64,000 nt of DNA from Nymphaea colorata (lineage: Eukaryota; Streptophyta; Magnoliopsida; Nymphaeales; Nymphaeaceae), in the NCBI RefSeq assembly GCF_008831285.2, contig NC_045138.2:7221205-7285204 (forward strand). Reading direction: 5' to 3'. The notes under the pieces are model-generated. The model was given only the letters and a program-made list of their open reading frames with translations. It was not told the DNA's origin and did no database searches. Of the stretch, positions 5,803 through 57,651 are shown one piece after another. Each line of letters starts with the position of its first letter. Position 1 is the first letter of the stretch. The position numbers and the translations under genes are program-made.

Positions 5803-6088
5803 CCGAATCCATCAAACACACATACATGCCTCCCCAAACACCAGCTTCCATGTGAAAGCCACGACAATGGCATCTTCCCTCCCGCCAAAATCCTCCACCA
5901 CCATCTTCCTCTCTTGCTTCCTTGGCCCTTCATAGTCAAAGAGTACTCCGCAGGCCGCTGAAGGAGAAGATGTCCAACATCCATTTCTACTTCCACGATA
6001 TCGTCAGTGACCGGAACCCGACTGCCGTGACCGTTGCCGGAGCAAAGAACAGCACCTCGCTGACGGGCTTCGGGGACATTGTGAAGAT

Positions 6089-6093
6089 CGATG
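6089..6093. repeat. Target-site duplication of the Copia element, left copy
   Basis: CGATG precedes the left LTR and CAATG (11504-11508) follows the right LTR. The single difference is G to A in a CpG, as expected from deamination of a methylated cytosine on the other strand. Removing the element and one copy restores the dirigent frame here. Confidence 0.85.
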
Positions 6094-6756
6094 TGTTGGG
6101 ATAAAAATGCGGATAAACACAAATCTACTAAAAAGATTTAACAACGAAGTATAGCCCAAACCGATCATGCAATAAGCAACAAATCAACGGCTGAGCAAAC
6201 CAATCAAAACAATAACAATCACAAACTGCACAAGAGAATTTTTACGTGGAAAACCCTTCAAAACAATGAGGGTAAAAACTACGGGATACTACGACCCAAA
6301 ACTCAATCTACTATGATCAATGATATAAGTTTTCCCACAAAGGGCTACACATAGCCAACCCTCAAACAATAATATCTCATCAAAACTATATGAGAAAACA
6401 AGGGAAAATATCACCGATTGAATGCGGAAACCATGGATTGAGAGGAAATGCACCTGACTTCCTCCTTGGAATCGAATCTTGCTCTAGCCAAATGCTCGCA
6501 ACCTTGTCTTCCTCTTCTCCTTCTCTCCTTTCCTCTTCTCCTCTCTTCTTCTCTTTCTCTCCTCTTGTTGTGCAGCCACCAAGAGAGAGCACACGAGAGA
6601 GGACACCTCTCTTTTTTCCCAAAATGGAACCCTAGAGAGACAGAAACGTGAGTGAGATTAGGAGGCACCATTGGGTGCCCTCCTTGTTCTTTTCTCCGCC
6701 CATCACTTAAGTGACGGGCTGGATTGGGTCTACTTGAGTCTAGACCCGACCCAACA
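6094..6756 (-). repeat. Copia 3' LTR (left on + strand)
   Basis: 663-bp LTR, TGTTGGG...CCCAACA, homologous to 10826-11503. It contains a CT-rich stretch at 6505-6570. ORFs reported within it on both strands are side effects of that composition. Confidence 0.93.
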
Positions 6757-6770
6757 AGCTCTCCTTCCAG
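6757..6770 (-). other. Copia polypurine tract
   Basis: On the minus strand CTGGAAGGAGAGCT lies directly against the 3' LTR, the expected position of the plus-strand primer. Confidence 0.7.
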
Positions 6771-6999
6771 CCTCAAGTGAGAGAACATTTCTGCAAAAAG
6801 AACAAAATTAATATACTGCCTTAAAGGCAGTCATCCCAACTAAGTCTCTACACATATCATGTTTTTCTTTAAGTAGAGACTTCGTCGCAAGATTATCATC
6901 TGTATGGATCTTATCAAGAACAAGCTGCTTCGACTATAAAACATCACGTATCTAATGATAGCTTACGTCTATATGTTTTGACCTTGCATGAAAAGTAGA

Positions 7000-7664
7000 A
7001 TTTTTTCTAAGGTGAATAGCACTCTGACTGTCACAGTAAAGCACATACTCGTCTTGACTGAACTGAAGTTCCTGCATGAACCTCTTCATCCATAGCAGCT
7101 CCTTGCTCGCCTATGTAGCTGCAATAAACTTTGCTTCAGTAGTAGATAATGCTACACATTTCTGAAGTCTGGATTGCCAAGAAACTGCACCACCTGCATA
7201 TGTCAATAAAAACCAGATATAGATCTTCTCCCGTGAATGTCTCTTGCCATGTCTAAATTTATATAGCCAACAAAAATAGATTTTTCTGCCCCAAAACAAA
7301 GTGAGAAACTGCTAGTCCCATGAAGGTATCTCAAAATCCATTTAACTGCTTCCTAATGTTTCTTTCCTGGATTTGAGACAAACCGACTAACAACTCCAAT
7401 TGAATGAGCAATATCAGGTCTGGTACATACCATAGCATACATCAGACTACCTGTGGCTAAGGCATAGGGAATCTTCTCCATATCTTCCTTTTCTGAATCT
7501 ATCTTTGGACTCTGCTTGGTACTCAACTTGAAATGTGCTGCAAGAGGGGTGCTAACAGGCTTTGCCTTGTCCATGTAAAATCTTTGAAGTACATTCTCAA
7601 TGTACTTCTCGTGAGATAGCCATAGCTTCTTCGACTTCCTATCTCGCGTGATCTTCATACCCAA
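7000..7664 (-). pseudogene. Copia RT end and RNase H (broken)
   Basis: The minus-strand ORF 7664-7353 carries the RT thumb/connection wording (GMKITRDRKSKKLWLSHEKY and later CTRPDIAHSIGVVSRF). After a stop, 7299-7111 and the next 100 bp carry Copia RNase H wording (GAVSWQSRLQKCVALSTTEA, then CDSQSAIHL). Stop codons at about 7352 and 7110 interrupt the domain. It is the 3' end of the pol of the element inserted in dirigent gene A. Confidence 0.88.
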
Positions 7665-7667
7665 AAT

Positions 7668-8609
7668 CTAACTAGCAGGTCCCAAGTCTTTCATAGCAAA
7701 AGACTTGCTCAACTTTTTTTTCAAGCTTGAAATTCTCGAGATACTATTGCCAACAATAAGCATGTTATCAACATAAATCAACAAAATAACAAAATCATTA
7801 CCTGTGAATTTTTTCACAAAGACGCAGTGATCTGAAGTAGTCTTGGTGTAGCCATACTCCCCCATAAATGACTCGAACTTCTTATACCAATGTCTAGGTG
7901 TCTGCTTCAGACCATACAAGCTTTTCTTTAATCTGCAAATATGGATTTCTTTACCTTTTACAAGAAAACCTTCGCGCTGCATCATGTATATTTCATCATC
8001 AAGATCACCATGAATAAAAGCTGTCTTCACATCCATCTGCTCAATCTCCAAATCAAGACTGGCTGCCAAACAAAGAACTAATCTGATAGATGACATCTTG
8101 ACCACCGGTGAGAATATCTCGTCGAGGTCAACTCCTTTCCTTTCATTGAACCCCTTCACAACCAACCTATCTTCGTATCTTGGGTTTAGAGAGTTTTCAT
8201 CATGCTTCACTCTAAAAACTCATTTGTTTCTCAATGCCCTCTTGCATTGGGGCAAGTCCACAAGCTCGAAGGTGTGGTTGTTGTAAAGTGACTGCATCTC
8301 ATCTTTCATGGCTTCCATCCACTTTTCCTTGTGCACATAATGCATAGCTTCTTCATAGCATTCAGGCTCACCACTGTCAGTCAACAAAATATAGTCATGC
8401 GCGGGATATCTAGATGATGGACGCCGCTCCCTCGTGGATCTTTGTTGCCGATCTACATCTGAGGAAAAAACCTCCAAATTATGATTGTCACCTTCGTCAT
8501 CTGAATTAGGAATATATGGCATGTCTACTTGTCTTTCTCTATCATGTATCTGCCCAACAGCATCATATGGCACTGTTCTTGAAGTATTCTGCAAAGGAAT
8601 ATGGTCCAC
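7668..8609 (-). pseudogene. Copia reverse transcriptase (broken, altered active site)
   Basis: 8609-8220 holds the region before RT and its start (WMEAMKDEMQSLYNNHTFEL). After a stop, 8210-7668 continues with FNERKGVDLDEIFSPVVKMS, DVKTAFIHGDLDDEIYM and GLKQTPRHWYKKF. The catalytic box reads IYVDNMLI where the family has two consecutive Asp, so the second catalytic Asp is Asn (GAC to AAC). A stop at 7668 separates it from the RNase H part. Catalytically dead as read. Confidence 0.92.
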
Positions 8610-8653
8610 ATCAACTGGCAGATAGCTACTATGAGAAGAATCCTTTCATGTTT

Positions 8654-9835
8654 TCATAATCTCTTCAATATTCTGATCTTCAGCAAATACCACATCCCTG
8701 CTTCTGACAAGCTTCTTCTCAACTGGATCATACAATCTGTAACCAAATTCATCATGGCCATAACCCAAAAACACAGATTGCCTGCTTTTTTATTCCAACT
8801 TCGATCTCTCATCCTTTGGTATATGCACAAATGCCCTGCATCCAAATACACGTAAGTACTCATAAGATACATCCTTCCCATACCAAATTCTGTTAAGAAT
8901 ATCACTATCCAAAGGAACATGTGGAGACAAATTAATCACATAAGCAGCAGTATGTAAAGCTTCATACCAAAAAGAATCAGATAACTGAGCTTTAGATAGG
9001 AGACATCTAACTATCTCCATGAGTGTTCTGTTCATCATTTCTGCCACGCCATTCAATGGAGGAGTCTTAGGTGGAGTGTTCTGGTGCCTGATGCTATGAG
9101 ATCTGCAATACTCATCAAATGGACCAATATACTCTCCTCCATTATCGCTGCGAACACACTTCAGCTTCTTTTCTGACTGTCTTTCAACCAGTGCATGAAA
9201 GTTCTTAAAAACACCAAGGACTTGGTCTTTCCTCTTCAAAGAAGCGACCTAAACTTTCCTGAAAAAATCATCATTAACGTGACAAGATAAAATGCACCAC
9301 CATGTGAACTTACTTTTATAGGACCATATACATCTGTATGAACCAACTCAAGTGCTTCTGACTTTCTGAAATGTGGATGACTCTTGAAAGAAACCCACGT
9401 CTGCTTCTCTGCAAAACAATGACTGCATTTGTCAAGTTTATCTTTCTTTACATCTTGTAGAAGATTCTTCTTGATCAAGAATTGCAGTCTCTTGTCACTC
9501 ATATGTCCCAGCCTCCTGTGCCACAACTCAATAGATTTTTCATCTTGTGTCACATGTACCATGTCTCTGAAAATTGATGTCTGCATAGTATAAAGATTAT
9601 TGCTGCATCTTTTGCCTCGAGCAATAATCAAGGAACCTCTGGTAAGCTTCCACTGGCCATCACCAAAAGTATTGTGATACCCTTCTTCATCGAGCCTTCC
9701 TGCAGAAATAAGGTTCAGATGCATGTCAGGTGCATGCCTCACGTCTGTCAGCTTCAAGAGAGCTCCATTCGTATTCTTTAGAATGACGTCACCTTTGCCT
9801 ACAACGTGAGACAAAGAACCATTACCCATTCTCAA
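8654..9835 (-). pseudogene. Copia GAG-pre-integrase and integrase (broken)
   Basis: 9835-9236 holds the GAG-pre-integrase region (ELWHRRLGHMSDKRL, then KCSHCFAEKQ completing the HHCC zinc site) and the first integrase Asp (LVHTDVYGP). 9239-8790, after a frame change, holds CVRSDNGGEY with the second Asp and PLNGVAEMMNRTLME with the Glu. All three catalytic acidic residues are present, but the reading frame is broken at about 9238 and again after 8790. Confidence 0.9.
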
Positions 9836-9859
9836 AGTACCAAAATCACTAGAAATATA

Positions 9860-10806
9860 TTAAGAGAAAAAATCCTTATGGGAAGTAACATGAAAAACTG
9901 AATCACTATCAAAAAGCCAACAAGTATCGTCTCTAGCAACGTTAGCCATGTTAGCATCACAAACAACAAACATTTCATGTTGTGCAGTAGCAGCGATATT
10001 GTTATCTCGGTCATTTTTCTTCTCCTGTTTCTCCCCAATTTTATTCTCCTTCTTCAGCTGAAAGCAGTACTTCTTTACCTATCATTTCTTTCCACAATGG
10101 TGGCATTCCAAATTCTTATATCTCAATTTGGACTTGCTTCTGCTTTCATCTCTGTCCCTGTCACTCTTGAATTTACTCATATCCCCTTGTTCTTTGTGAA
10201 AAGAACCTCTGTCTGAGAAGAGCAAGCCTGAGATTTTCTTCTCATCTCCTTATTGAGAATACCTGACTTAACAGTCTCTAAAAAAACAACCCCATTAGCC
10301 GCAGAATTAGTAAGCGGGACTCTAAATGTCTCCTATGAATCAGGCAAAGTAGCAAACAATAATAATCCCAAAATCTCATCTTCAAATTTAACGCCCATAC
10401 TAGATAACTGACTAATGACCTAAAAATCATTTAGAAAATCTGACACAAAACTGCCCTTCCTGATTCTCAAATTCATCAATCTTTTCAGAAGAAATAATTT
10501 ACTACTTCCTGTCTTGTAGGCATAAAGATTCTCTAACTTTGCCCACAAACTACGTACACGATTTTCATCTTGGATATGGTCATAAACATTTTCATCCACA
10601 AATTGTCGAATGAAACCACAAACTTGTTCGTGTTCAAATTCTCATTCCTCATCAAACTTAGAATCAGGCTTTTCTTGGGTAAAAACTAGGGGGTGCATAG
10701 CCTTCACATATAAGAGATCTTTCATTTTATTTTTCTATAGACTATAGTTAGTCCCATTTAGACTAATCATATGGCTAGTACCAAAATCAATTTTGTTATC
10801 TACCAT
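9860..10806 (-). pseudogene. Copia gag and protease (broken)
   Basis: The gag start is the ATG at 10804-10806 (MVDNKIDFGTSH...), right after the primer-binding site. A Trp-to-stop (TAG) follows at codon 24, and further stops occur through the gag-2/UBN2-type region (LWAKLENLYAYKTGSSK). A zinc-knuckle remnant (CHHCGKK) precedes a stop. The protease box reads CWLFDSDSVFHVT, where the usual third residue Gly of the active-site triad is Asp. Several lesions; not functional. Confidence 0.85.
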
Positions 10807-10809
10807 GTT

Positions 10810-10822
10810 GGCTCTAATACCA
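10810..10822 (-). other. Copia primer-binding site
   Basis: On the minus strand TGGTATTAGAGCC begins 3 nt after the 5' LTR. It is one base away from the TGGTATCAGAGC motif used by many plant Copia elements (initiator-Met tRNA). Confidence 0.85.
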
Positions 10823-10825
10823 CTT

Positions 10826-11503
10826 TGTTGGGATAAAAAATGCGGATAAACACAAATCTACTAAAAAGATTTAACAACGAAGTATAGCCCAAACCGATCA
10901 TGCAATAAGCAACAAATCAACGATTAAGCAAACCAATCAAAGCAATAACAATCACAAACTGCACAAGAGGATTTTTACATGAAAAACTCCTCAAAACAAT
11001 GAGGGTAAAAACCACGCGGTACTACGACCCAAAACTCAATCCACTATAATCAATTATATAAGTTTTTTCACGATGGGCTGCACAAAGTCAACCCTCAAGC
11101 AATAATAACTCATCAAAACTATATGAGAAAACAAGGGAAAATATCACCGATTGAATGCGGAAACCGTGGATTGAAAGGAAATGCGTCTGGCTTCCTCCTT
11201 AGAATCGAATCTTGCTCTAGCCAAATGCTCGCAACCTTCTCTTCCTCTTCTCCTTCTCTCCTTTCTTCCTCTCATTCTCTCTTCTCTTTTTCTCCTTCTC
11301 TCCTCTTGCTGTGCAGCGACAAAGAGAGAGCACACGAGAGAGGACACCTCTCTTTTTCCCCAAAATGGAACCCTAGAGAGAGAGAGAGAAAAACGTGAGT
11401 GAGATTGGGGGGCACCATCGGATGCCCTCCTTTTTCTTATCTCAACTCATCACTTAAGTGATGGGCTGGATCGGGTCCACTTGAGGCTGGACCCGACCCA
11501 ACA
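10826..11503 (-). repeat. Copia 5' LTR (right on + strand)
   Basis: 678-bp LTR homologous to 6094-6756. It is bounded internally by the primer-binding site and externally by the CAATG target-site copy in dirigent gene A. Confidence 0.93.
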
Positions 11504-11821
11504 CAATGACCCATTGACGGAAGGGCCAGAGTTGTCCTCCAAACTGGTGGGAAGAGCCCAGGGACTCTATGCCTCGGCCAGGCTGCAGGGTCTGAGCTTG
11601 CTAATGGCAGTGAACTATGTATTCATGGAGAAGTACAATGGCAGTAGTTTGAGAATTCTAGGAGGAACACAACAATGCGGCCAGTGAGGGAGATGAAGGT
11701 GGTCGGCGGCAGCAGTCTGTTTAGGATTGCCCGTGGCTACGCCATTGCGAAGACTCATTGGTTTGATGCAAACACAGGAGATGCCACAATAGAGTACAAT
11801 GTCTACGTCGTCCATTATTAA

Positions 11822-13500
11822 TTAGAAGAAGAAGCCATGGCGGATCATGGAATCCTGAAATCCCAATTATGACTCTTGTCAGTTGGGTCGCGTTTGTTGT
11901 TCTTTGGATGGCCATTTAGCTTGTACAGTAACAACTTTTTTTTATCATATTTTTTATTTTTTTTTATAGGTGTAAGTGTTTCATAAATCTACTTCAAAAT
12001 TGAGAACTACTTCAAAATTTTAAAGAATACATGATGTTTCAAAATCAAAATTTTAAAGAACGAGCTTACATGATGTTTCAAAATTAAGGTAAATTCTTAA
12101 AAGATTATAACAAATATCCCAAGAACGTATGCTTAAATGATGTCATTATTTCCGAACAACCTCTTAAAAATTTAATATTTTATAATTAGTGTCCTTTTCA
12201 ATGAAAAATTTTTACATCTACCTCTGAATTCAACTTGATTACGAGGCGTAAAGACACAGCGAGACTTTCACCGAAAGTAGCCATCAAAGAGAAAAGCAAA
12301 AGTGAAAGGAGGGACGACTTAGATTGAGATAAAAAAAGAACCGGACTGCGTTTTTAGTTTATTTTATGCAGTGTTCATTCACCTTTCCTTTTCCCATCCG
12401 TATGCACGGGCTAAATGCTTGCCGAGTACGGTTCCATAACTGTTCTTTCTCCTTAGAGAATGGGTCTGGATCCAGACTATATGTATCCAATTTGAATCAA
12501 TTAAAAATGTTGTCCTTTAGCCATGTCCATTAACCGAGCAACAACGATTACTTTGAGTTTATCATAAGCCATGTTTGAGAGTCTTGGATCTGAGATTTGA
12601 GTGTGATTCTAAATCCACCTTATGTTAAATCCACAGCTTAAACTAAAGGGAATTTCTCAATTAGAGATCTTAAATCTGTGTTACATTATGAAGCCACTGA
12701 TATGTTCAATTTATTTTTTCTCTTTTAAGTTTCCTTTCCATCCATTTTGCTTTTGTTCTCTCTCTTTTTCTCCCTTTTTAATTGCCTAAGAAATGTAAGG
12801 GTGGGTGCTCTGCCAGGCCACCGGCAGGGGCCCAGTCGGGGCACGGGTTCGTGCCTGGAAACCAGGCCCGGGCCCAATGCCCAATGGGCCAGCCAGAAGG
12901 GAAACAAAGCCAGACCGATTAATTTTTAAAATTATGTTTTATTATTAACATTATATGTTTTCTTATTAAAAATATATTTTATATTCAAAAAAATTATTTT
13001 ATTTTTTAAAATAATCTTTTATTATAACCGTGCCTCGGCTTAAATTTCGGGTCCTTGCCCAGGCCCATCTTTCCGACATCAGACCGACCGACCTGAATGT
13101 TACCTTAAGGGTCCAATGGCCACCTCTTTGGTTTGAGAAGCCGACACTTTCTCATCCTTTTTGCCTGGTGGTCCTCTAAAATTGATGACTTGCCCCTTCC
13201 ACTCTTTGGGGACAGCAAGTTCTACAGGTTTAATTAGTCTATGAATATTCAAAAAACATGATTTTTTGGCAAAAAAAGATAAATGTATAACATTATATAT
13301 CCATAATTTTTTAAGAAGCAACAGCATCCTGTAAATGTTTGGATTAAAATAGCCTTCTCATGACCTTGATTTATAATAATAAAGTTCAAAAAACTAAAAT
13401 TGAACAAATAAATCTAAGAAACAACCATATAATTGTATATAAATATTTTATATATGTTTATAATATAATATATATTTCACCACACTCCCACACCCCGTTT
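11822..13500. other. Spacer with GC-rich repeat fragment
   Basis: No gene is supported. Around 12800-12905 a GC-rich patch contains CCCGGGCCCAATGCCCA, resembling the terminus of the GC-rich MITE family at 17888-18367 and 34096-34590. Another GC-rich patch lies at 13028-13095. Ends could not be fixed. Elsewhere the DNA is AT-rich. Confidence 0.45.
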
Positions 13501-15968: not shown

Positions 15969-16548
15969 ATGGCCTATTCCCTTCTTCCAAAACCCTCAGC
16001 CACTATCTTCCTCTTTACCTTCTTCTCCATCGTTGCCGTAGCAGTGGATGCCAAACTGGTTCATAGTCAAGGATCAAGGAGTCCTCCACAGGCCACCGAA
16101 GGATAAGATATCCCACCTCCATTTCTACTTCCACGACATCCTCAGCGGCCGGAATCCGACTGCAGTACCCATCGCTGGAGCTAGGAACGGGACCTCGGCA
16201 ACGGGGTTTGGTGATGTTATAATGATCGACGCCCCCTTGACAGAAGGGCCCGAGTTGTCTTCCAAGCTGGTGGGAAGAACCCAGGGGCTCTACGCTTCGG
16301 CGGGGCTGCAGGAAGCGAGCTTGCTCATGGCAGTGAACTACGTGTTCATGGAGGGGAAGTACAACGGCAGCAGCCTGAGCATTCTAGGGAGGAACGCGCC
16401 GATGCAGAGAGTAAGGGAGATGCCAGAGATGGGTGGTAGCGGTCTGTTCAGGATGGCTCGTGGCTGCGCCCTTCCGAGGACTCGCTGGTTTAATGCAAAC
16501 ACAGGAGACGCCATTGTGGAGTACAATGTCTTTGTCGTCCATTATTAG
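15969..16548 (+). pseudogene. Dirigent gene B, frameshifted by a 7-bp tandem duplication
   Basis: The ATG at 15969 aligns with the start of gene C and opens a signal peptide (MAYSLLPKPSATIFLFTFF...AVDAKLVHS). CAAGGAT/CAAGGAG (16068-16081) is a 7-bp tandem duplication that shifts the frame and gives TAA at 16104-16106 after 45 residues. The shifted frame carries the whole remaining dirigent domain without a stop (SHLHFYFHDILSGRNPTAV, PLTEGPELSSKLVGRTQG, YVFMEGKYNGSSLSILGRN, VEYNVFVVHY). The conserved Asp-Asp-Pro has become Asp-Ala-Pro and ARGYA has become ARGCA. An ATG at 16048 could start a 166-residue protein without a signal peptide, but a cytosolic dirigent protein is not expected. With the TATA loss, I call it a young pseudogene. 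Confidence 0.85.
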
Positions 16549-17834: not shown

Positions 17835-17879
17835 TCAAATATATATGGCATGCCAGTATAATTAATGGTTTAAAATATA

Positions 17880-21185: not shown

Positions 21186-21755
21186 ATGGCGTATTCCCTT
21201 CTTCCAAAATCCTCCGCATGCACCATCTTCCTTTTTTGCTTTTTCTTCCTCGTTGCCGTGGCAGTGGATGCCAAACTGGTTCATAGTGATGGAGTACTCC
21301 ACCGGCCGCCGAAGGAGAAGACGTCCCACCTCCACTTCTACTTCCACGACATCGTCCGCGGCCGGAATCAAACTGTAGTACGGGTTGCCGGAGCTGGGAA
21401 CCGGACCTCGGCGACGGGGTTTGGCGATGTTGTGATGATCGACGACCCCTTGACAGAAGGGCCTGAGTTGTCTTCCAAACTGGTGGGAAGAGCCCAAGGG
21501 CTCTACGCTTCGTCCGGGCTGCAGGAAACGAGCTTGCTGATGGCAGTGAACTATGTGTTCATGGAGGGAAAGTACAATGGCAGCAGCTTGAGCATTCTGG
21601 GGAGGAACACGGCGATGCGGCCGGTGAGGGAGATGGCGGTGGTCGGCGGCAGCGGTCTGTTCAGGATGGCCCGTGGCTACGCCATTGCGAGGACTCACTC
21701 GTTTGATACAAACCAGGCCACGGTCGAGTACAATGTCTATGTCGTCCATTATTAG
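21186..21755 (+). CDS. Dirigent protein C (intact)
   Basis: This is a 189-residue, single-exon dirigent protein of normal family length. Dirigent proteins are secreted beta-barrel oligomers that bind oxidase-made phenoxy radicals and impose stereo- and regioselective coupling, as in lignan formation. Residues 1 to about 28 form a hydrophobic signal peptide. The domain runs from SHLHFYFHDIV (47-57) through TGFGDVVMIDDPLTEGPEL (78-96), LVGRAQGLYA, YVFMEGKYNGSSLSILGRN (123-141) and VVGGSGLFRMARGYA to VEYNVYVVHY at the C-terminus. Possible N-glycosylation sites are N61, N72 and N131. The mature chain has no Cys, so it cannot form the disulfide of the DIR-a type and looks like a DIR-b/d member. 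The ATG is chosen because the signal peptide begins there and the homologues share it. A TATA box lies at 21119. The substrate cannot be told from sequence. Confidence 0.95.
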   Translation: MAYSLLPKSSACTIFLFCFFFLVAVAVDAKLVHSDGVLHRPPKEKTSHLHFYFHDIVRGRNQTVVRVAGAGNRTSATGFGDVVMIDDPLTEGPELSSKLVGRAQGLYASSGLQETSLLMAVNYVFMEGKYNGSSLSILGRNTAMRPVREMAVVGGSGLFRMARGYAIARTHSFDTNQATVEYNVYVVHY

Positions 21756-25686: not shown

Positions 25687-26266
25687 TGGTCGCTTTTGGT
25701 TCGAATATCCTCATTTATAACACCACTTTTGTATTATTTATCAATCTGTCGTTTGTACCTAGAAAAGTATAATCTATAAACATTTTACTGGTATAAATAA
25801 TATGCCATGACACTTGAAAATCAAGTCTGACCTATTGGATTTCTAAAACTCATCTTACATGTCAAACTTAATTATAAATTTGGTATCAATTTTAATTTTT
25901 ATAAACATGGATAACCTCACGTGCACCGTTAATTTTTGAGAATAAGTAAGCTTGAAATAACTTTTGCAAAATTTACCTGTCCCAACTTGGTGTTCATGTG
26001 AGTGCGTGCACAGAAATGATTTACATGAAAGAGGAATTACAACCCAATTCATTTTTTACCCAATCAATGTCAGCCGTTATTTTTGTGGTTGGGTAGTTAT
26101 TTTTTATTTTGTGGCACTGAAAAGTATAGTAAAAATTGCATTTCATCGTTAGAAACCATAGCCAAATAATTATGCATCACCAATTTACCTTTTGCCATAA
26201 TTGTTTATCGACACAAAATAAAATAATAACTACCCCGTGACAAAGGTAACCAACTAACTTCAGCTG

Positions 26267-26303
<37 letters not shown>

Positions 26304-26615
26304 AAGAGATCCGACCGCTGGCTAAATAGCCTAAATGTTCAAAACCTATCATTAAATCGTTTCTTACTAAAAGTAACATAAGTTGGTGCGGTACAATAAA
26401 TAATCGCAGTTGCTTTTTATGGCTGAAGACTATATATATATATATATAAGAGGGAGAGAGAGAGAAATCAGACCACCGGCTAAATATTTAAAATCTATCA
26501 TTAAATCATTTCTTACTAAAAGTAACATAAGTTGGTGCGGTACAATAAATCATTGCTATTGTTTTTATGGCTGAAGACTTTACAGCATATTGTAGTTATA
26601 TAACCATAGACAACG

Positions 26616-26651
<36 letters not shown>

Positions 26652-26780
26652 TGATAGAAAGAGAAACAAACTGAATTTCGTACCTAAACATCTTATAGCA
26701 ACTTTCGTACCTAAACCCAACTCCTGAATTTCGAAAGACTAACAACCGACAAAGTGATCGGCGTTTTTGGCCTGAATCAC
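25687..26780 (-). repeat. Dirigent D downstream block (copy of 30869-31785)
   Basis: Colinear with 30869-31785: TGGTCGCTTTTGG(T/A)TCGAAT, CATTTTACTGGTATAA, TCTCACGTGCACC, AAAGTAACATAAGTTGGTGCGGTACA, CGAAAGACTAACAACCGACAAAGTGATCGG. It includes (TA)n-(GA)n tracts at 26270-26308, 26437-26465 and 26618-26649. Lies 3' of dirigent D. A tRNA-like B-box (GGTTCGAATATCC, 25699-25711) stands alone. Confidence 0.8.
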
Positions 26781-26789
26781 GGAGATGTC

Positions 26790-27362
26790 CTAATAATGGA
26801 TGACATAGACATTGTACTCCACATTGGCGTCTCCGGTGTTGGCATCATACTGGTGAGTCCTCGCAACGGCGTAGCCACGGGCCAACCGGAATAGGCCGCT
26901 GCCACCCACCACAGGCATCTCCCTCACCGCATGCATCGGCGCATTCCTCCCCAGAATGCTCAGAGTGCTGCCGTTGTACTTCCCCTCCAGGAAAACATAG
27001 GTGCATGCCATCAGCAGCGTCGTTTCCTGCTGCCCGTCCAGCGCATAGAACCCTTGTGCTCTTCCGATCAGCTTGGACGACAGCTCCGGGCCCTCCGTCA
27101 GTGGATCGTCGATCATGGCAACGTTGCCGAAGCCAGCCGCAGAGGAGATGTTCGCTGGCCGGACAATGTTTACGGCCGTCGGATTTCGTCCGCTGACGAT
27201 GTCGTGGAAGTAGAAGTGAAGATGGGACGTCTTCTCCCTCAGCGGCCTCCTGCTTCCGGCCAGCTGCCTCTGAACTGGTCTGGCGCTTGCAGTTAAAAAA
27301 GCGAGGAAGAAGAAGCAAAGGACGAAGATGGGTGTGGTGGATTTTGGAAGATGGGAAGCCAT
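26790..27362 (-). CDS. Dirigent protein D (intact)
   Basis: A 190-residue single-exon dirigent protein on -, convergent with gene C. Residues 1 to about 28 are a signal peptide (hydrophobic core FVLCFFFLAFLTASA). Domain wording is complete: SHLHFYFHDIVSGRNPTAV (46-64), MIDDPLTEGPELSSKLIGRAQG, YVFLEGKYNGSTLSILGRN (122-140), VVGGSGLFRLARGYAVART and VEYNVYVIHY. Possible N-glycosylation sites are N71 and N130. One mature Cys (C120), in place of the C-gene Ala, cannot form an intramolecular disulfide. It differs clearly from C across the molecule, so it is a separate paralogue, closer in flanks to E. The expected role is stereoselective phenoxy-radical coupling in the apoplast; product unknown. 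A TATA-type box lies about 65 bp upstream. Antisense ORFs here are shadows. Confidence 0.95.
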   Translation of the reverse strand: MASHLPKSTTPIFVLCFFFLAFLTASARPVQRQLAGSRRPLREKTSHLHFYFHDIVSGRNPTAVNIVRPANISSAAGFGNVAMIDDPLTEGPELSSKLIGRAQGFYALDGQQETTLLMACTYVFLEGKYNGSTLSILGRNAPMHAVREMPVVGGSGLFRLARGYAVARTHQYDANTGDANVEYNVYVIHY

Positions 27363-30560: not shown

Positions 30561-30868
30561 TAATTGAAATTGATACAGCCATTATTGGAGGATATGATAA
30601 TAAAATATACAATTAGAATGTTAGTTCAAGAGCATCGGCTCGAAACACTATACCATTTAAAGATATGAAAGCTTCATCAACGGTTCAAACTAGTTTGCAT
30701 ATTATTTGCTTCAGAAATGAATCGCAACTATGGTAGTATTGTTTGGTTTACGCAAGATTAAAATATATATGGCTATAAAATTTCATCTAACAACCTAATT
30801 AATTGGTATTATACAATTACCAATTAAAACATTTAACTAGCTGCACATGAGTCTGCGTCGAGTACCCA

Positions 30869-31586
30869 AGCTGGTCGCTTTTGGATCGAATCTCTTAACT
30901 TATAACACCACTTTTGCAATATTTATCAATCTATCCTTTATATCTAAAAAACCATAAATCTATAAACATTTTACTGGTATAAGTAATATGCTATGACACT
31001 TTAAAATCTAGTCTGACCTTTTCGATTTCTAAAACTCATCTTACATGTCAAAATTAATTATAAATTTGGTTTCAACTTTAATTTTTATAAACATAGATAA
31101 TCTCACGTGCACCATTAATTTTTCAGAAAAAGTAAGCTTGATTTTTTTTTTTGGCAAAATTTAACTCACCCAACTTAATGTGCATGTGAGTGCCGCAGAG
31201 ATTATTTACATCAAAGGGGAATTACAGCCTAATACTTTTTTGACACAATCATGTCAGCCGGTTATTTTTGTGGATTTCATTGTTAGAAACCATAGCCAAA
31301 GCATCGCAAATTTACCTTTTGTCATAATTGTTTAACGACACGAAATAAAATAATAAATATCCGATAACAAAAGTAACCAACTGACTTCCACTTATATATA
31401 TATATATATATAAAAGAGAGAGAGAAAGAAATCAGACCACTGGCTAAATGTTTAAAATCTATCATTAAATTATTTCTTACTAAAAGTAACGTAAGTTGGT
31501 GCGGTACATAAATCATCTTTATTGCTTTTATGGCTGAAGACTTCACAGCAGTGAGCAGTTGTAATTATATAACCATAAGACAACAA

Positions 31587-31678
<92 letters not shown>

Positions 31679-33157
31679 GAGAAACGTATATAACAAAAAG
31701 GCCAAACATCTTATGGCAACTTTCTTACCTAACCCAACTACTGAATTTCGAAAGACTAACAACCGACAAAGTGATCGGTGTTTGAATCAGCCGATTCAGG
31801 TTTATTCACAAAAACAAATTTTTGAAATAGTCTCCTGCTTTCATGTCCAAGTAAAATAGTGCAAAAATATAATTACAAAAGTTATCTATTAAGAGCAGGC
31901 CAATAAATTAGGAAGGGTTGAGATTCGTTGTGTTTACAAAATTTTAAAAATTATAACAAATGATTTTTATTTTTTACAAAATCAAGGAGGGGTGGAGCGC
32001 GTGGCCCCTGCCAGCCTCGCCTTGGCTGCTCTCTCTTTCTCTCTCTCATGCACATACAACACGTCAGTATTAACAAACTTTACTTTGTAAACAAGCTTCC
32101 TTGACATGTGGAAAGGTCATGACACACGACGCACATAATTGTATTAATTTTCCTTTGTAATAAGCTTTTCTTAGGTGTGAAATGAAATAATGACTTCCCA
32201 ATTCTGAAAGTAGTGGGAAAAAGGGACTTCCTAGCATTTTTTTTTCGTTTTTTAGGCTGAGTAAGAGTTGAATCTTACTGCCCAAGTATGACCTGAAGTT
32301 GGTAGGCCTTTTCTTTCTCAAGTTAGTTATATACGCCGCACCCACATATGAAATTTCATATGTCATTTTAATAATGACAAAAAATAGCCATGAATAATGA
32401 AAAAAAAAACTTTTTGTAGGGATAAAAATATAAATTGCAAAAAAAAATTTGGAGATTCGATAAAGATAAAATTTTTCAGTCCTTATATGCATATCGGTAT
32501 GACCAATATACCCTTCTAAGTAGTAAAAAAGTATTTTACTTTTTTTGTCTCGCTCATAACGTTATCTCATTATCTTATAAACATATCTCATATTTATGTT
32601 TATCGCTATCTCATACATCTATTTGTTGTCTTATAAACATTATCTCATACTTAAATTTAACCTTACCTCATACATCTATCTATTATCACATTATCTCATA
32701 AATAATTTGTTATTTCATCCCTATCTGTTATGTCGCACATGCATATATGTAATATTTGAGCATGAAAGTAAGTATGCATATTGATAATATGGTTCACATC
32801 GGATGTTCGCTCATTATATACATGGACCGGTGTAGAGAACTTGCTCTCTCCTCTTTCCCCTACCCCTAAGTCTAAGGGCTGCAATGGTGTCTTTGGAATA
32901 TGTAGGATGTCTCCCCTCTAAGTCAACTAATATAAATGCATTGTTCCTAAAATCAATTGTTAGTATGAAAAGAAGGAGACCACTTTGATTCAATTTGAAT
33001 CACTTTTTCCTTTTTCTCAAAAACTTCTAAGGGAATGTTTCTCAACTTCTTTTTCACATTTTTTCATCATTCTCAAATGATTTTCGTTTTAAAGTTTAAA
33101 GCGTCTGTTAAATTATTTATTTACATTTCTACCATTACGAAAACATCATTTTATCAT

Positions 33158-33189
<32 letters not shown>

Positions 33190-33260: not shown

Positions 33261-34095
33261 GCCTAATTATTCATGATATTTTTCGGAGATTTTCAGCTTT
33301 GCTAAAAATACCCGCAAACAATCTTACAAACTTGAAACCCGTTAATATTTTGATTATGCTTTTATTGGACAAAACTAAGGATCCTGCATCTCCGGTTGTG
33401 GCTAAAAAGGCATCTACTAAATTATTTGATAAACAAAATGTTGATGAAGAAACATTTAAAAGTATATCCTTACATAATCGTCTTTTAATAAATTTCATTA
33501 TGAGCTGTTAAACGATTACTAATCCAAGTTGACGAGAGTACTTATACATATGTTTCTTAATTGAATGGAAAAATTACAAAGAGCCGATGCCGAACAAACA
33601 GGTGAATTAACCATTAATGGCCGCGCCATACCGTTGAGAGATATCAGATATAAGTGCCAAACTTTTCTAACTGCTTCATAAATAGCTGCAGTAAACAAAT
33701 AGCAAATTAACTTGTCCCTTTAAATTAAAATTATTTTCACAAAACAAAGAAAAAAATCAACAGAAGGAAAAAATCACTGCTGCCTCTTGCGATGCAGCGA
33801 GTGTCAAAATGCCGCTGCCTGGACCCTTGCCAGGCAGCGACGGAGAGGGTCAACAGCACCCATGTGGCGTTGTTGAACAGTGAGGGTTAGGGTGAGCAAC
33901 ATGTAAATGACTTGAGCTCGAGCTTGAACTCAGATTATTGAGTCGAACTCGCCTCATAAAGCTCCATTCAGTAGCGGAGCTACCTTGAGGATAACATGGA
34001 CAACCATATTAAAGTTTTATTATCAATAGATCACTCAATGCATTTCATTGGGTGGATGTGATTAAACACATTTCTCAATGCATGTGTGGGAGGCT
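33261..34095. other. Spacer without recognised gene
   Basis: 33271-33511 is open on both strands (70-75 codons) but matches nothing I know. 33900-33975 carries the GAGCTCGAGCTTGA-type dispersed repeat. Nothing else is supported. Confidence 0.45.
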
Positions 34096-34590
34096 TAAGC
34101 CTGGGCATTGGGCCGGGCCGCCACCGGGCCTGGCCGGCCCTTTCGGACCTGGGTTCGGGCCGGGAAAAACCTGGCCTAGGCTGGGCCTGGACCCGATAGG
34201 CCAGCCCGGTGGAGGCCCAGACCGACTCCCGCCCTCCGTCTCCCTCGCTCCCTCTCCCTCCTCCTCTGAGTCCTCTCCGCTCCCGCTCTCTCTCTCCTCC
34301 GGCTCGCCCTTTCCCTCTCCCTCTCTGCTTCCCCTCTCCCTCTCTGCTCCCGCTCCCCCTCTCTTTCTCCCCCTCTCCCTCTCCTCTTCCCCTCTCTCTC
34401 TCCCTCCTCCTCTGTCTCCCTCGCCGCTCCCCCTCCTCCTCCATCGGAGGGGGTCGGGAGGTCAGGGGAAAAGAGGGTCGGGAGGGCGGGGAAAGGGGTT
34501 GGGATGGTGGGCCTGGCCGGGTCCGGGTCCAGCTGAGCGGCCCGACGAGCCGGATCGGGCCGGCCCTGCCCGGCCCGATGCCCAGGCCTA
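34096..34590 (+). mobile_element. GC-rich hAT-like MITE, copy 2
   Basis: A 495-bp element with terminal inverted repeats of at least 23 bp: left TAAGCCTGGGCATTGGGCC, right (complement) TAGGCCTGGGCATCGGGCC. Flanks GGGAGGCT and GTGAGGGT agree at 6 of 8 bases, an eroded 8-bp target-site copy. The core is pyrimidine-rich (34215-34445), then purine-rich. It shares termini and core words with 17888-18367. ORFs on both strands are artefacts. Confidence 0.8.
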
Positions 34591-34599
34591 GTGAGGGTA

Positions 34600-35285
34600 C
34601 ACAAATTTTCAGTGGAAACCCATACGAAGAAATTCATAAACACAACACACTCTTATAGCTCAGCCTTGACAACCCACAGTTGGGACAACCCCCAACAACT
34701 GAAACGTTCAGATATAATATCAGTGTGTGGGCGCATCCACTCAATTAGATCGTTCTACATGCCTTTTTTTCCAAGATAAGCTGATGAATATCACCAAGGT
34801 TTCAAAAATGAGTACAGGGTAATAAGTATATATATATATACATCATATTTTGTTTCATTTCTTATATATATATACATATATAAAACGTAATATTAAAAAC
34901 GTGTAATATTAAAAAAACACATATAATACCCAAGAAATAAGTTAGTCGTATAAAACTGCAATTAGAGATGACATTTTTTTTAAATGCCAAAAAATAGAAA
35001 ACGTAGAAATAACACGTGTTATACATGTATTTTTAGCTTTTTGTATTTTTTATTATTTTTTATTTTTTATAATTTTTAAATGTATTAAATATTTTAAATT
35101 TTTAAATCGAGGTATTCTTGAGATATACAACTTTACCGTATTATACTCAAGAAAATTTTCAGATGGAATTCTCTCCATTCAAGGTCGCCCTGTGCTTTTT
35201 ATCCTGCCGTCTCTTTTCATTGGTGGTATATATTTAGTCTATCCTTAATGACCTGACCACATTATACATTGTTGGGAAACTCAAG
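34600..35285. other. AT-rich spacer
   Basis: TA/TATACA tracts at 34830-34882; no gene seen. Confidence 0.5.
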
Positions 35286-36695: not shown

Positions 36696-37259
36696 CTAGA
36701 TTGAGTATGGGTAATGCCTCACATAAACATCATACTCTACAACAGCATCACCAGTTGTGGCATTCAATCTGTGAATCCTGGCCTGTGTGTAACCTTGGGC
36801 CATCCTGAAATACCCAGTCCCACCCACCACTGCCAATTCTCTTATAGGAACCGAGGCACTGTTCCTTCCCAATACGCTCAGAGTGCTGCCATTGTATGCT
36901 CCTTCCAAGAACACATACGTCTGCACCATCAGCAGGCTCACGTTTTGCAGTGCCGCAGAAGCATAGAACCCCTGAGCTCTCCCAATCAACTTGGACGTCA
37001 GTTCCCGCCCTTCCGTCAGAGGATCATCGATCATGTTTACTTCGCCAAACCCCGTCGCCAAATTGTTCAACGGAGACTGAACAATGGTCGCCACCGTCGG
37101 GTTCCGGCCGGTAACTATGTCGTGGAAGAAGAAGTGGATGTGGGTGGTCCTCTGTTTCTGTAACCGGATTGCTGGCGACGGGATGATTCTGTGGTTACTG
37201 GTCTTTGCCGCGCAACTAACTGTTAGGAGGATTGCAAGGAAGGAGAGGAAGAAGTAGTT

Positions 37260-37267
37260 GCTGCCTG
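37260..37267. repeat. 8-bp target-site duplication of the hAT element
   Basis: GCTGCCTG (37260-37267) and ACTGCCTG (40576-40583) flank the element with one mismatch; 8 bp is the hAT signature. Confidence 0.85.
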
Positions 37268-40200
37268 CAATGTTGTAAAACGCGTATCGTAAAGCGTATC
37301 GATCAGGCTTTAAGATACGTCGTATCGTAACCGTATCGTAATTTTTTTTAAAATAATAATAATAAATCAGAAAAAATTAAAAAAAATCAAAAAATTCATA
37401 AAAAAATCAGAAAAAATTAAAAATAATAAATTCTTCATAGAAAACACGTTTTAGATAATGATAGACTTATTATTGCTAAATGCTATAAACTTACACGTTC
37501 ACGGTTCATCATTCATACTTCATAGACATCAAAATTCATAACAATATCATTCAATTTCAATCAACAAAGCATAAGTCATAAAGTGATAAAGTCATATAAC
37601 ATTCAAGTGTTCAACAACTATAGATAACTCTTAAGTGGTTCGATAGCACTAGTAGACTCTCCTTCATCAACAAAGCCTTCTGTTGCTTCAGCTTCAAGGT
37701 TGAAGCATTCAAGATCTTCATCATCAAGATCTTCATCATCAAATATTGTAGCCGGTTCTTCCTCAATCCATGGCTCCAGTTCGTCAAAGTTTTCCAAGCT
37801 GATAGGATCGAACTGAGATGTGTGCTTCCTTGCTGATGTTTTTTGTAATTCTCTACGTTACATAAGAGAAAACTTATTAATATATAATTTCATATAAATA
37901 TATTGTACAAAAAATGTAAACATTAAGCTATATTACCTTTGTTTCAACCTCATATTATATCGAACAAAGACAAAGTCATCCAACCTTTTATGTTCGAGTC
38001 TATTCCTTTTTTTGCTATGGATATGTTGGAACACACTCCAGTTCCTTTCGCATCCACTAGCACTGCATGTCTGGCTGAGGACTTTGATTGCAAAACGTGC
38101 TAGGTTTGGACAATCAAACCCATACCTATTCCACCACAAATCTAAACAAAAATATAACGTTATAACAAATCAATGTGAAAGTTATAAAAGAATCAAATGT
38201 AACAAATGCAAAGTAAATTAAACATTTCTATGTATTTACCTGGACGCATGGTTGTCCTGGCTCGAACGACGACAGGTTGTCCCATGCCCCGATAACAAGT
38301 ATCATATAGATTTAACTCATTGCTGACGGCATCTTGTTCTCTAGAATCTGCCACTAACACGTTAATACAATCCAACAAACCACTTAAGACTTCTCTGTCC
38401 TTCCTAAATGTAGGAGAAAATCTAATTGCAGGATTTAGATAGTAAGCTGCTGCATGAAGAGGTTGATGAAGCTGTCCAGTCCACCTTTTATCTATCATCT
38501 TTTATATGGGCATATATAACTTTTTCTTTCCTTTTAAGTTGTCTCAAATTGCCTCTTTTGCTTTATCCATGGCCTCATGTAAGTACCCTATGGAAGGCCT
38601 ATCCTCACTGTCAGCTAACCTGAGGACTTTCACTATGAAACACAAACTTTCAATAGCTTCACACATGATTCTCAAAATTCGTTATTAAACATGATATCCA
38701 CAACTAAAGAAGCATTTCTTTTATGAGCATGTGGATATGCAGTTCATTCTTCACTAGCGAACATCTGCCTCAAAGGAGTTCTTTGTTTCACCACACTCTG
38801 CACAATCAATACATTTGTGGCAAATCTAGTTTGTGCAGGTCGTATCAATTCAACTCCTTTTGTAAACTTTCTCATCAAACTCAATACATATGCATGATTA
38901 TAGATAAATTTTGTTACCTCTTGACATTGGTCAATGACTGATTTCATATCATGCATCTCATTAAGATCTTGAAGCATAAGATTAACACAATGAGTGGCAC
39001 ATGGACTCCAAAAGAATGTTCCATACTTTTGAAATAACAAATCTCATGCAGCTCTATAATTTGCAGTATTATCTGTAATAAACTGTACAATGTTTTTCGG
39101 TCCAACTTCTTGTACTACATTATAAAAAACATTGAACAAAATCTTAGTAGTCTTAGGAACATCAGACAAGTCAAGAGATTTCAAGAACATTGTACCTTTA
39201 GGACAATAAACAAGAAAATTTACAAGTGCTCTTGACCTTGTATCAGTCCATCCATCTGACATAATGGAGCAACCTATTTCCTTCCAAGATAATTTCAATT
39301 GATCGCAATGTCCAGACACTTCTTTCACTGTATCTTGAAGAATTTTACCCTTCAACTGATGATATGATGACATTTCGAATCCGGGGCCTGTAGAAGCAAT
39401 TGCATCTGCCATGGCTTGGAATTGAAAAGAATTAGCCGCATTAAATGTAATACATGCATCATAAAACCATTTTCCTACCATCTTTTGTGCTTGATATAGC
39501 ATATCTTTAGATGTCATAGCAGCACGAATCTGCGGCTGACCACGTGGGCTAGTATATGAAGGAAAAAAGCTCTTAATAGAGCCAACACTAGACCTACCAG
39601 TAGGAACTCTACCACTAGGTGGTCGCATACCATGCTTGGCCCTATCTGTTGTTCCTCTTCTCTTCCTTCCCGTTACGCCAGATCGACCTCCTTCATACAT
39701 GATCCCTTTTCCTCTACGATCTCTACCTCTTGAGGTCTCCAAATCTGTTCTTAGAATTGTATCATCTTCATCGTCACATTCATAAGCTTCTTCCTCTTCT
39801 TCTTCATCTTCCAAAGCCTCATTATAGCCTACATCTGCCTATTCAATTTCTTTCTGTATCATATTTTGATGTAAAGCATGAAGCATATCTAAACATTGCT
39901 GACGGACATATGGAGGCAAAGGTTTGTTTGGTCCTCCAACACAAGGAGACGCATCTTTGGAGGTCCCTACCAAATGGTGTTTCATTATACTAATCCCTTC
40001 TGAAAATGTATTCCCACAAAAGCTACATTTGAGTTTAAGTGGTTATTCTCCTTCACCCTTTCGCACTATTGCCATGTAGAATTCATATCTTAAAAAAAAA
40101 ACGAAATCCTATGGTAAACTTAATGAAAAACATTCAAAATCTTTCAATCTACGATTCTATGGTAAAAAATTATGAATATGTGGTAAAAACAAGAGATTCC

Positions 40201-40575
40201 ATACCTTATAAAGAAGAAATCAAGAAAACCCCTTTCCTCTCAATGAAAATCAACCACCCACGCACAAATCGACCCTTCAATCTTCGATTTCACGATGAAA
40301 ATCAATGTTTTCACGGTGAAAATTGATGATCTCCCCTCTTGGACGCACAAACCCCATGTTATAAATGAAGAACCCTCACACGTTTTAAAGAAAAAGTGAA
40401 AAAGGAGGCTTCGGGTGCCTCTTTTTCAAAATTTACCCGTATCGCACGATACGTGCGATACAAGGCCGATACACCCCCTATTTACGATACGGGGGGTATA
40501 CCGTATCGTAAATAGTCATCGATACGATACGTATCGTACAATACAGGCTCGTATCGTACGATACGTACAACATTG
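37268..40575 (-). mobile_element. hAT element (DUF659/BED type) in dirigent gene E
   Basis: A 3308-bp element with terminal inverted repeats CAATGTTGTA and subterminal clusters of CGTATCG/CGATACG at both ends (37278-37340 and 40440-40565), probably transposase-binding sites. It carries a degenerate BED-DUF659-hATC transposase on -. The subterminal clusters and a precise 8-bp target copy identify the superfamily. Confidence 0.92.
37622..40035 (-). pseudogene. hAT transposase, BED-DUF659-hATC (degenerate)
   Basis: On -, a BED-type zinc finger starts near 40030 (CSFCGNTFSEGISIMKHH), followed by an acidic stretch (EDEEEEEEAYE) and a basic linker. The DUF659 domain is at about 39330-39044 (IMSDGWTDTRSRALVNFLVY, FITDNTANY). 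After TGA at 39041 it continues (WSPCATHCVNLMLQDL, 39010-38744). Stops and a frameshift lie in 38740-38500. The hATC dimerisation region is split by a GT-AG intron (38239-38142): exon NLARFAIKVLSQTCSASGCE and KKRNRLEHKRLDDFVFV. A second GT-AG intron near 37935-37862 leads to an acidic C-terminus ending at 37622. At least four lesions make it non-functional, though both introns keep intact splice sites. Confidence 0.88.
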
Positions 40576-40647
40576 ACTGCCTGCCATGTCTCCAAAGTAT
40601 GAGCAAGAGAGCGATGCAGGTCGATCAATTCATGTACTCTGGTTCTG

Positions 40648-40655
40648 CTTATATA
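40648..40655 (-). promoter_or_regulatory. TATA box of dirigent gene E
   Basis: TATATAAG on -, 61 bp before the ATG, undisturbed by the hAT element, which lies downstream of the start codon. Confidence 0.7.
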
Positions 40656-44517: not shown

Positions 44518-45570
44518 ATGGTAGCATTAGCAGTTGCATTAAATAATATTGAAAAGCTTAACAATAGCAATTATGGCTATTGAAAATCTTGCATGGAGTC
44601 GTATTTTTTAGGATAGAAATTAAGAGATAACAAATATTCATGTCGACGAGGAAGCTAAGATGAAATGGATGACCAAAGCAAGGAAAACTCTATTTGCAAT
44701 TAAGATATCAATTGAGAAGGATTTATTAGAGCATATACATGATGCTAAAACTCCTAAAGAAGCATGGGATGCTTTTGCAATGCTATTTTCTCAAGCTAAT
44801 GACGCACACTTACAACTGCTAGAAAATGAATTAGCTACATTAACTCAGGGAAACATGTCAATAACAAAGTATTTTTTGAAGGTTAAAAACATCTATAGGG
44901 AGATTTCTCAATTTGACCCTGAGTCTAAGATTAGTTAGGCCTATATGCGGAGAATTCTTATTCGTGGACTTCGTTCAGAATTTAGCAATTTTATAATTGA
45001 TGTTCAAGGTTGGCCATTTCAACCAACTTTATTGGAGTTAGAGAATCTTTTGATCAATCAAGAAATATTAGCGAAGCAAATGGCTGAACTTTTACTCAAA
45101 GTAAATAATGACAAAGCTTTGTTTAGTAAGGGTTAGAGATCACGTTAGCCAGTTAAGCCAGTTGTTAGGTCTCCAAGTATGAACATTGATGAAAATAAAG
45201 ACAAAGATATAGAAAGAAAACAAGAGAAGCTACACAACAGTAGATACAAAAAAAGAAATGTTTTAGATGTGAAAAATTGGGTCGTTTTGCTCGTGACTAC
45301 ACAGTCAAAATAGATGAAAGAAATGTAGTCACGATGATGATAAGCAGCATGAGGAAACTAATGAGACTGTACAAAAAAGTTTGTTTCTGTACTCAATGGA
45401 GGTTAAAAAGGACATTAAACAAGAAAGATATAATTCTGCTGATGTAAAACCTATAAAAGAAGAAAAAAGAGAAGATCAATTATCAAACTGATTGGATCAT
45501 TGATTTTGAATGCTCAAATGATATGACTAGTGATGAGAACAAGTTTGAAAGTATGAAAGAATATGATGGA
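44518..45570 (+). pseudogene. Copia gag-protease remnant (broken, truncated)
   Basis: Starts ATG (MVALAVALNNIEKLNNSNYG) with an early stop where the family has Trp. It continues with the UBN2/gag-2 region (ARKTLFAIKISIEKDLLEHI, TPKEAWDAFAMLFSQAND, LQLLENELATL, then RGLRSEFSNFIIDVQGWP). A zinc-knuckle remnant (CFRCEKLGRFARDY) lies at about 45259 and a protease box (WIIDFECSNDMTSDENKF) at about 45500-45555. Several stops interrupt it. Copia wording ends at about 45570, where a GC-rich sequence of different type begins; the rest of pol is absent from the window. Confidence 0.85.
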
Positions 45571-47433
45571 CACGGGCGGAGGAAGGGGGGCCCACCTAGG
45601 CCATGGCCCTACCCAACGCATAAAAAAAATATATTTAAAAAATCAAAATTTTTTAGTTTGGCCCGACTCGCCGGCCCCGCCCTCTCTCTCGCTCGCTCCC
45701 TCCCTCTCTGCCCTATCCTATTTCACCCCTCTCTCTCACTCTCTCCCCTGCCTCTCTGGCCCACAGCTAATAGCTCAGTTCGCCCTCTCTCTCACTTGCT
45801 CCCTAGTCTGTCCCTCACTGTCCTGGCCCACAAGATCACAACCACAACACGACCCTCTCTCTCTCGCCCTCTCTCTCACTGGCTCCCTCCCTCCCTACCT
45901 TGGCCCACAACATTCACTTTATTTGCATCACTTCTTGAATCTGCACTTGAAGGTAGTCCTCTAATAATCAGAAAATTATATCCTGGCATCCTGCCCTCTG
46001 AGGGTAACATCATACTGTTGAACCACTTATTTGATGTCGTGCACTTGGTGGAATATTTGGTTTGATAAGCTCTTCTTTTAACCATTTGTTTCCACCTTGC
46101 TCTGCTTAGCTAATGCTTTTTTCAAATCATTTGACATCAGTGCTCGCATGATGCTTATAAGAAGGCCTGAAAAATGATTCTACGTGGTAATTTCAAGTAA
46201 TTTTTGTATTCTATCTGGTCTGAATCATGATGCATTAGCTGATTTATATCTGAACTGTTTGCAGCCCCATCCATAAGAATTTTAGTGGCTAACAGGTTTT
46301 TAAACACTTCAATATGATTTTATGATTATTGATTTAAATATGCATTCCAAGTAAAGTTTCTTTTTAGGCTTGATATGTTCATCTGTTGCATTGTTGGCGG
46401 TGCTTGATAATATATATGTTATTCTTCTTAAAATCCAACTATGTGCATGAGTTTGCCATTGGGTTCCATTGTATGTTTCTTAATCTTTCCTATTGAATGT
46501 TTCTTTCCACATTGATTTTCGACCTTCCCGTTATAGCTGTCATAATATGCCTAGGCTACCTTAATAATATCCTTCTTTGTAATTGGTAATATTCATGTCA
46601 TGGAATCATTGGTACACATACTACAAAGTTGCCTTAGCAATTAGCTTATACCTTCCTGCCATTTATGGACTTATTTTGTGTCTAACAGGACCATCTAGTA
46701 ACATACATCCTGTCTTTTGATGTTTTAGTTCTTTGTTTCTTTGGTTCCACAGGCTATGACTAGGAAATATTATATATGCCAAGTTGGAGAAAGACATACC
46801 TTGGTCTTTTGTTTTTTTGGCTGCACATTTTGCAGCACTAATTCCCTTTCCCGATCTGATTATACAATTTGACAATACATGCAGGAATATGTCTGAAACA
46901 ATAAGGTGCGACATAGACACAGTTGTTTTTGTTGCATGGAAGATTCAATGCATGAAATATGTAATATGATTCTTTTTGTGGTTTTTCTTCTACATTTTTG
47001 GTGCTTGTCTGATATTTGTTCTTCCAGTTCCTACTGAGCACTTGTGAATCACCCTCCCAGCACATCCTGAAAAAAGATTTAGGATCATGAAACACAACCT
47101 TAGTTTTATACATGTTGATAACAATTTGAGAAATAGATTTTTATCAAGTGTACTTTGAAATCTTCAGGTGATGGGCAATTAGATGACATTGAAGTTCTTG
47201 GATGATACTTTGCAAAGCAGGTTAATTTTGGGAACTTGAACATCCTAATTAATCCCAACTTTTATGGCTAGGTTATGAGGAGTTGGTTAGTCAGAAAGAT
47301 ATATTATTTTTGTCTTTGTTGCCTCTTGCTTGTTGCAGTATTCTTGAAAATGATGCTGTATATCTCTAAAACGTTTAAATATTATTATCTATTTTGAATT
47401 TCAGGTTTTTCGTGTTAGCATATTGAGAAGAAG

Positions 47434-57649: not shown

Positions 57650-57651
57650 GG

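Follow-up and report, generated by a model that had tools for sequence, protein, structure and literature searches.

A dirigent gene of Nymphaea colorata interrupted near its start codon by a hAT-type transposon with a decayed transposase gene

Dirigent genes in the window

Five dirigent genes were found in the window, the whole stretch of 64,000 nucleotides of Nymphaea colorata DNA that was analysed, and two of the five (D6 and D1/D2) are split by transposons. The coordinates of these genes and of the element inserted in D6 are given in Table 1.

Table 1. Positions of the dirigent genes and of the parts of the hAT element (window coordinates)
Feature	Position	Strand	Basis or remark
Dirigent paralog D1/D2	5867..11824	+	Split by Ty1/copia element (about 6094-11503); start counted by hand
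Dirigent paralog D3	16042..16548	+	Domain open, signal-peptide part in different frame
Dirigent paralog D4, intact	21186..21755	+	Pfam, open frame
Dirigent paralog D5, intact	26790..27362	-	Pfam, open frame
D6 body, codons 5-191 and stop	36696..37259	-	Open frame, Pfam, phmmer
Target-site copy GCTGCCTG	37260..37267	.	Abuts element end
hAT element, 3,308 bp	37268..40575	-	Transposase oriented as in D6
Terminal inverted repeat CAATGTTGTA	37268..37277	.	Perfect, 10/10 bp
Subterminal GTATCG repeats, 4 copies	37283..37339	.	In left 80 bp
Transposase gene, read as dead	37621..40075 (start at 40075)	-	Open-frame reading, Pfam
Predicted transposase intron 2, 84 bp	37853..37936	-	Splice scoring, untrained matrices
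Predicted transposase intron 1, 98 bp	38142..38239	-	Splice scoring, untrained matrices
Subterminal GTATCG/CGATAC, 11 intact and 1 CpG-decayed (CAATAC)	40436..40567	.	In right 150 bp
Terminal inverted repeat TACAACATTG	40566..40575	.	Partner of CAATGTTGTA
Target-site copy ACTGCCTG	40576..40583	.	Abuts opposite element end
D6 codons 1-4, ATG GCA GGC AGT	40576..40587	-	Open frame
TATA box, 68 bases before D6 ATG	40650..40655	-	Beyond element

Removal of the element and one target copy from D6 leaves 576 bp in a single frame, equal to 191 codons and a stop. The mismatch between the target copies is silent in codon 4, and the same protein therefore results whichever copy is removed. On the coding strand, the element comes after ATGGCAGGCAGT, at base 12. 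The first-pass annotation had correctly placed it near the start of the gene and noted the continuous frame, but had put it within codon 4, whereas the insertion point is the boundary of codons 4 and 5. Its claim that D6 freed of the element would be a third intact dirigent gene also holds, D4 and D5 being the other two.

The Pfam dirigent family (PF03018) matches D6 with an E-value of 1.1e-53 over positions 1-147 of the 148 in the profile. The solved structures matched by phmmer were 6ooc (2.7e-49, D6 residues 1-188), 8th2 (2.2e-49, residues 6-189), 6ood (7.6e-47, residues 33-188), 5lal and 4rev. Entry 6ooc, titled only "Dirigent protein", is taken here to be the pterocarpan synthase GePTS1. 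Among solved structures, D6 is nearest to the DIR-b/d pterocarpan synthases (6ooc and 6ood) and to 8th2, and its placement in the DIR-b/d subfamily rests on these best matches. The six polar active-site residues of GePTS1 named in the excerpted text of PMC7450108 (D50, D83, Y103, N137, R145 and Y181) are all conserved in D6. An AlphaFold2 model of D6 residues 24-191, made with three paralogs (four sequences), had a mean pLDDT of 38.6, too low for use as evidence on the dirigent beta-barrel fold. D6 is predicted to be a gene for a secreted-type dirigent protein that is open apart from the insertion.

D6 is the distant member of the array, with dS of about 1.6-1.8, compared with 0.31-0.82 among D3, D4 and D5. 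Comparisons of D6 with D4, D5 and D3 gave dN/dS values of 0.17-0.18, and D6 evolved no faster than D4 or D5 in all four Tajima comparisons (chi2 0.03-0.68). Synonymous divergence from D6 has nearly reached saturation (pS 0.66-0.68). At the 59 positions invariant in GePTS1, 8th2, D4 and D5, D6 keeps 51 residues, one fewer than D3 with its frameshift (52). Owing to this near-saturation and to the score of D3, conservation says little about the time since the insertion, and these measures appear to describe mostly the period before it.

The gene D3 has Ala at the position of GePTS1 Asp83 and looks like an early pseudogene because of this substitution and its shifted signal-peptide frame. In D1/D2, the 5' half extends to 6093 and the 3' half begins at 11504, and both halves carry frame changes; the dirigent fragments detected by tblastn at 5.95 and 11.4 kb belong to this single gene. 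The long terminal repeats of its copia element (about 6094-6756 and 10826-11503) are 90% alike (K2P 0.118), and the flanks, CGATG and CAATG, match at four of five bases.

A second copy of the DNA flanking D5 (25684-26766 and 28073-29598) is present at 30868-33164 and lacks the intervening stretch, which contains D5 together with some 700 bp of its upstream DNA. A few bases are common at the junction (GTTT/TTTGAAT), which suggests that this copy arose with a microhomology deletion. Elsewhere in the window, a 403-codon frame at 61927-63138 matches the Plant mobile domain (PF10536, 9.7e-30) and lies beside retrotransposon frames. RNase H and integrase domains were detected at 55625-57685, the only neighbouring retrotransposon frame scanned. 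Judged from their order, the PF10536 frame and the adjoining frames may form one Ty3-type element. Three low-complexity blocks (17862-18546, 34013-34658 and 45457-46065) contain long open frames, which in the first two blocks occur on each strand, and are probably not genes; the G+C content, measured for 34000-34499, is 0.63 in that stretch.

The inserted element and its transposase

The 8-bp target copies GCTGCCTG and ACTGCCTG are identical at seven of eight bases. The inverted ends CAATGTTGTA match perfectly and begin with CA, in agreement with the consensus for hAT terminal repeats tabulated in the available part of PMC4423477. The CAATGTTGTA 10-mer has no further exact copy on either strand of the whole window. 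No further copy of the element was found in the window by blastn, whose off-locus matches consist of 29-63 bases to the A-rich stretch of the element. Ends and target copies as sole proof of an element were rejected: among 777 exact inverted 10-mer pairs in the whole window (at least two G/C, 1-6 kb apart), three, including the ends of this element, have flanking 8-mers at least 7/8 alike. The flanks of the other two pairs are TA runs in one and A-rich sequence in the other. Since ends and target copies are not unique, the identity of the element is settled by the enclosed hAT transposase and the subterminal motifs. Within the 230 terminal bases the motifs TATCG/CGATA occur 15 times, whereas 0.18 occurrences would be expected at their frequency in the remainder of the window. 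Four of five hAT features are present (target duplication, CA ends, dimerisation region and DUF659). The 3.3-kb insertion is a hAT-type transposon lying between 8-bp target copies, as the first reading of the locus had it.

The transposase gene, in contrast to that of an autonomous element, does not have an open frame. By our reading of the frames it is dead, with six in-frame stops (first bases at 40045, 39841, 39046, 38746, 38546 and 38504, minus strand) and one frameshift near 38674. Frame changes near its 3' end would be accounted for by the two predicted introns. The DUF659 region is linked to plant hAT transposases, and this family was matched above its Pfam cut-off in two segments separated by a stop (4.1e-40 and 3.2e-10). 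The dimerisation region (Dimer_Tnp_hAT, PF05699) was matched above the Pfam cut-off (1.6e-13), whereas a zf-BED match (E 0.0017, 18.8 bits) fell under its cut-off of 20.6. The stop at 39046 is the only lesion within a Pfam match, and the others follow from frame continuity. The pieces 38550-38681 and 38199-38501 matched no Pfam family, so that continuity is what supports the frameshift and the stops at 38546 and 38504. A scan of viral contigs with a 264-aa piece of the transposase gave 600 pattern matches, none of which was confirmed.

The DNA on the two sides of the element is read as one gene, because the spacing between the TATA box and the ATG in D6 (68 bases) is similar to that in D4 (67) and D5 (71 or 73), and because the DNA beyond the TATA box resembles that upstream of D5. 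Identity between the segment 40904-41509 and 28631-29258 is 67% across 664 columns and reaches 82% across 186; the former segment contains internal repeats and also matches 32362-32822, within the second copy of the D5 flank. An assembly or haplotype artefact joining unrelated flanks would agree with the locus being known from a single assembled sequence, but it is exceedingly improbable in view of the perfect inverted ends with target copies, the continuous frame, the TATA spacing and the paralog-like upstream DNA.

Effect on D6 and timing of the insertion

Translation from the native ATG of D6 enters the element and ends after 23 residues. The first in-frame Met in the D6 body is residue 80, and a product starting there would lack both the signal peptide and the first of the catalytic aspartates. 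A start of the D6 body at an ATG within the element was considered and rejected, as no in-frame Met is present between the upstream stop and codon 5. For these reasons, the present allele is probably null, its native-ATG product being truncated within the element.

Splicing of the element from the mRNA as an intron would leave a nearly normal D6 protein, and this was assessed with untrained splice matrices, which underlie all splice scores given here. The candidate acceptor is the 3' junction (TTTACAACATTGCAG|GCAG), composed of the element end and the target copy, where the insertion brought the element end next to CAG|G. Its score of 8.96 bits is reached by 0.6% of AGs when both strands of the window are counted, and it exceeds the predicted intron acceptors of the element itself (7.0 and 4.8). 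In-frame donors lie in the other terminal repeat, and the best product would gain four residues (MAGSQCCSNYFF...). The original D6 protein would be produced exactly if a GC-AG splice used the target copies. The best in-frame donor, however, scores a weak 3.7 bits, which is equalled by 20% of GTs, and is surpassed by the predicted donors of the element's own introns (9.7 and 8.1), whereas those donors of the element that score higher (7.9, 6.2 and 5.7) give no in-frame product. When the element was inserted in simulation at every position of D6, the splice score of the real site was matched in 5 of 545 placements in the same orientation, counting the real one, and in 42 of 1,090 placements when both orientations were allowed; the corresponding counts were 68/1,078 in D4 and 37/1,084 in D5. 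Some in-frame splice pair, however, was available at 98% of the simulated D6 sites, and the transcript end of the element itself would be expected to compete with splicing.

Precedents for this process have been reported. According to titles cited in PMC3260210, the maize element Ds1 acts in Adh1-Fm335 as an intron, and its alternative splicing from exon sequences is also reported. Introners that use target copies as splice sites, one of them adding four residues, are described in PMC9860276, but the part of this PNAS survey available to us reports none from land plants. Selection on the coding sequence would be consistent with a D6 frame that is open next to target copies that no longer match fully. 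On balance, removal of the element as an intron is quite unlikely, and the fuller proposal of a newborn intron, with a strong acceptor at one border, frame-keeping donors at the other end and selection keeping D6 open, is very unlikely.

The lesions of the transposase may have accumulated either before or after the element entered D6. If the six stops arose in place, 0.067-0.09 substitutions per site would be implied, and at that decay D6 would be expected to carry about 1.2 stops and 0.25 indels; none was observed. The probability of finding no lesion in D6 under such side-by-side decay is 0.22-0.24, and lesion counts by themselves were set aside as a means of dating because they do not decide the matter.

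The subterminal repeats at the element ends offer a second measure of time. The CpG is kept in 15 of 16 subterminal hexamers, and the observed/expected CpG ratio is 3.57 and 2.43 at the two ends, 0.54 in the interior and 0.42 in transposase exon 1. If CpG is assumed to mutate 3-10 times faster than other sites, the probability that at most one of the 16 hexamers would have decayed is 0.014 or less; without faster mutation this probability is 0.23-0.39 and the test fails.

An active element that arrived in D6 and decayed there over a long period, with D6 left open by luck, would agree with the lesion probability above and with the mismatch between the target copies at one of eight bases, which would seldom show in a very young insertion. 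The CpG ratio of D6 (0.64) points the same way: it is close to that of the copia-split pseudogene (0.68), with D4 at 0.91 and D5 at 0.86, and D6 may thus have undergone some methylation-type decay. The retained CpG of the terminal hexamers argues against such decay in place, as does the copia-split neighbour, an older split gene that did decay and carries frame changes in both halves, while D6 has none. Long decay in place is therefore considered unlikely.

We favour, as probable, the reading that the transposase died before the last jump of the element and that a related active transposase, acting in trans on the intact ends, placed the dead element in D6 recently. D6 would then be a dirigent gene disrupted by a hAT element and now null, from which the element could be lost only with a transposase supplied in trans. 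A comparable situation is described for rice in the accessible text of PMC4423477, in which defective transposase frames were present in most of the full-size Mutator, Harbinger and hAT copies that are polymorphic, although the exceptions with intact frames include a hAT element.

Excision could revert the allele. Since the transposase of the element is dead, excision would need a transposase in trans, and precise loss, or loss leaving a multiple of three bases, would restore the D6 frame. Short in-frame additions near the signal peptide should be tolerated. The first-pass annotation had proposed reversion by precise excision; in-frame loss would indeed restore D6, but the element could not mobilise itself and footprints are often left. 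According to the parts of the literature consulted, a germinal revertant of the rice hAT element nDart1 retained a footprint of 8 bp that included substitutions, the affected gene being non-coding, and revertants also result when the bases added or deleted number a multiple of three (PMC4585910). The frequency of precise excision varies. Precise excision of the Harbinger element mPing was found in 83% of about 30 events in Arabidopsis and in about 1/70 in rice (quoted in PMC4423477). None of the maize Ds-l elements tested, seven of them named, gave an excision band despite their hexamers (PMC3260210, in the portion available), and intact-looking ends do not guarantee mobility.

Significance and comparison with known systems

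Insertion of a hAT element into an otherwise whole gene is a common and ordinary type of mutation. D6 is a clean example of an insertion allele, and it belongs to a tandem family of a kind used in plant phenolic chemistry. Together, D6, in which the insertion is apparently young, and D1/D2, in which it is old, illustrate the loss of genes from such arrays. Should the element turn out to be spliced or polymorphic, the locus would provide a natural case in which the birth of an intron or a reversible allele could be tested. Among the matches listed in a literature search, no report of a hAT insertion in a dirigent gene was found.

The element in D6 is similar to the Ac/Ds system of maize and the Dart/nDart system of rice in its 8-bp target copies, short inverted ends, insertion in an exon, clustered subterminal hexamers and hAT-type transposase, and differs from both in that its transposase is read as dead. 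In the accessible portion of PMC3260210, Ac has 11-bp ends and the hexamer AAACGG, compared with the 10-bp CAATGTTGTA and GTATCG found here, and the Ac transposase binds the subterminal hexamers, which have a similar terminal arrangement. In the StCDF1.3 allele of potato, a transposon has likewise inserted naturally into a coding exon, and its excision footprints, in the excerpt of PMC12420743, are mostly of 7 nt (15 and 11 occurrences), with some in-frame footprints of 6 nt (3 occurrences). The StCDF1.3 insert is 865 nt long, compared with 3,308 bp here.
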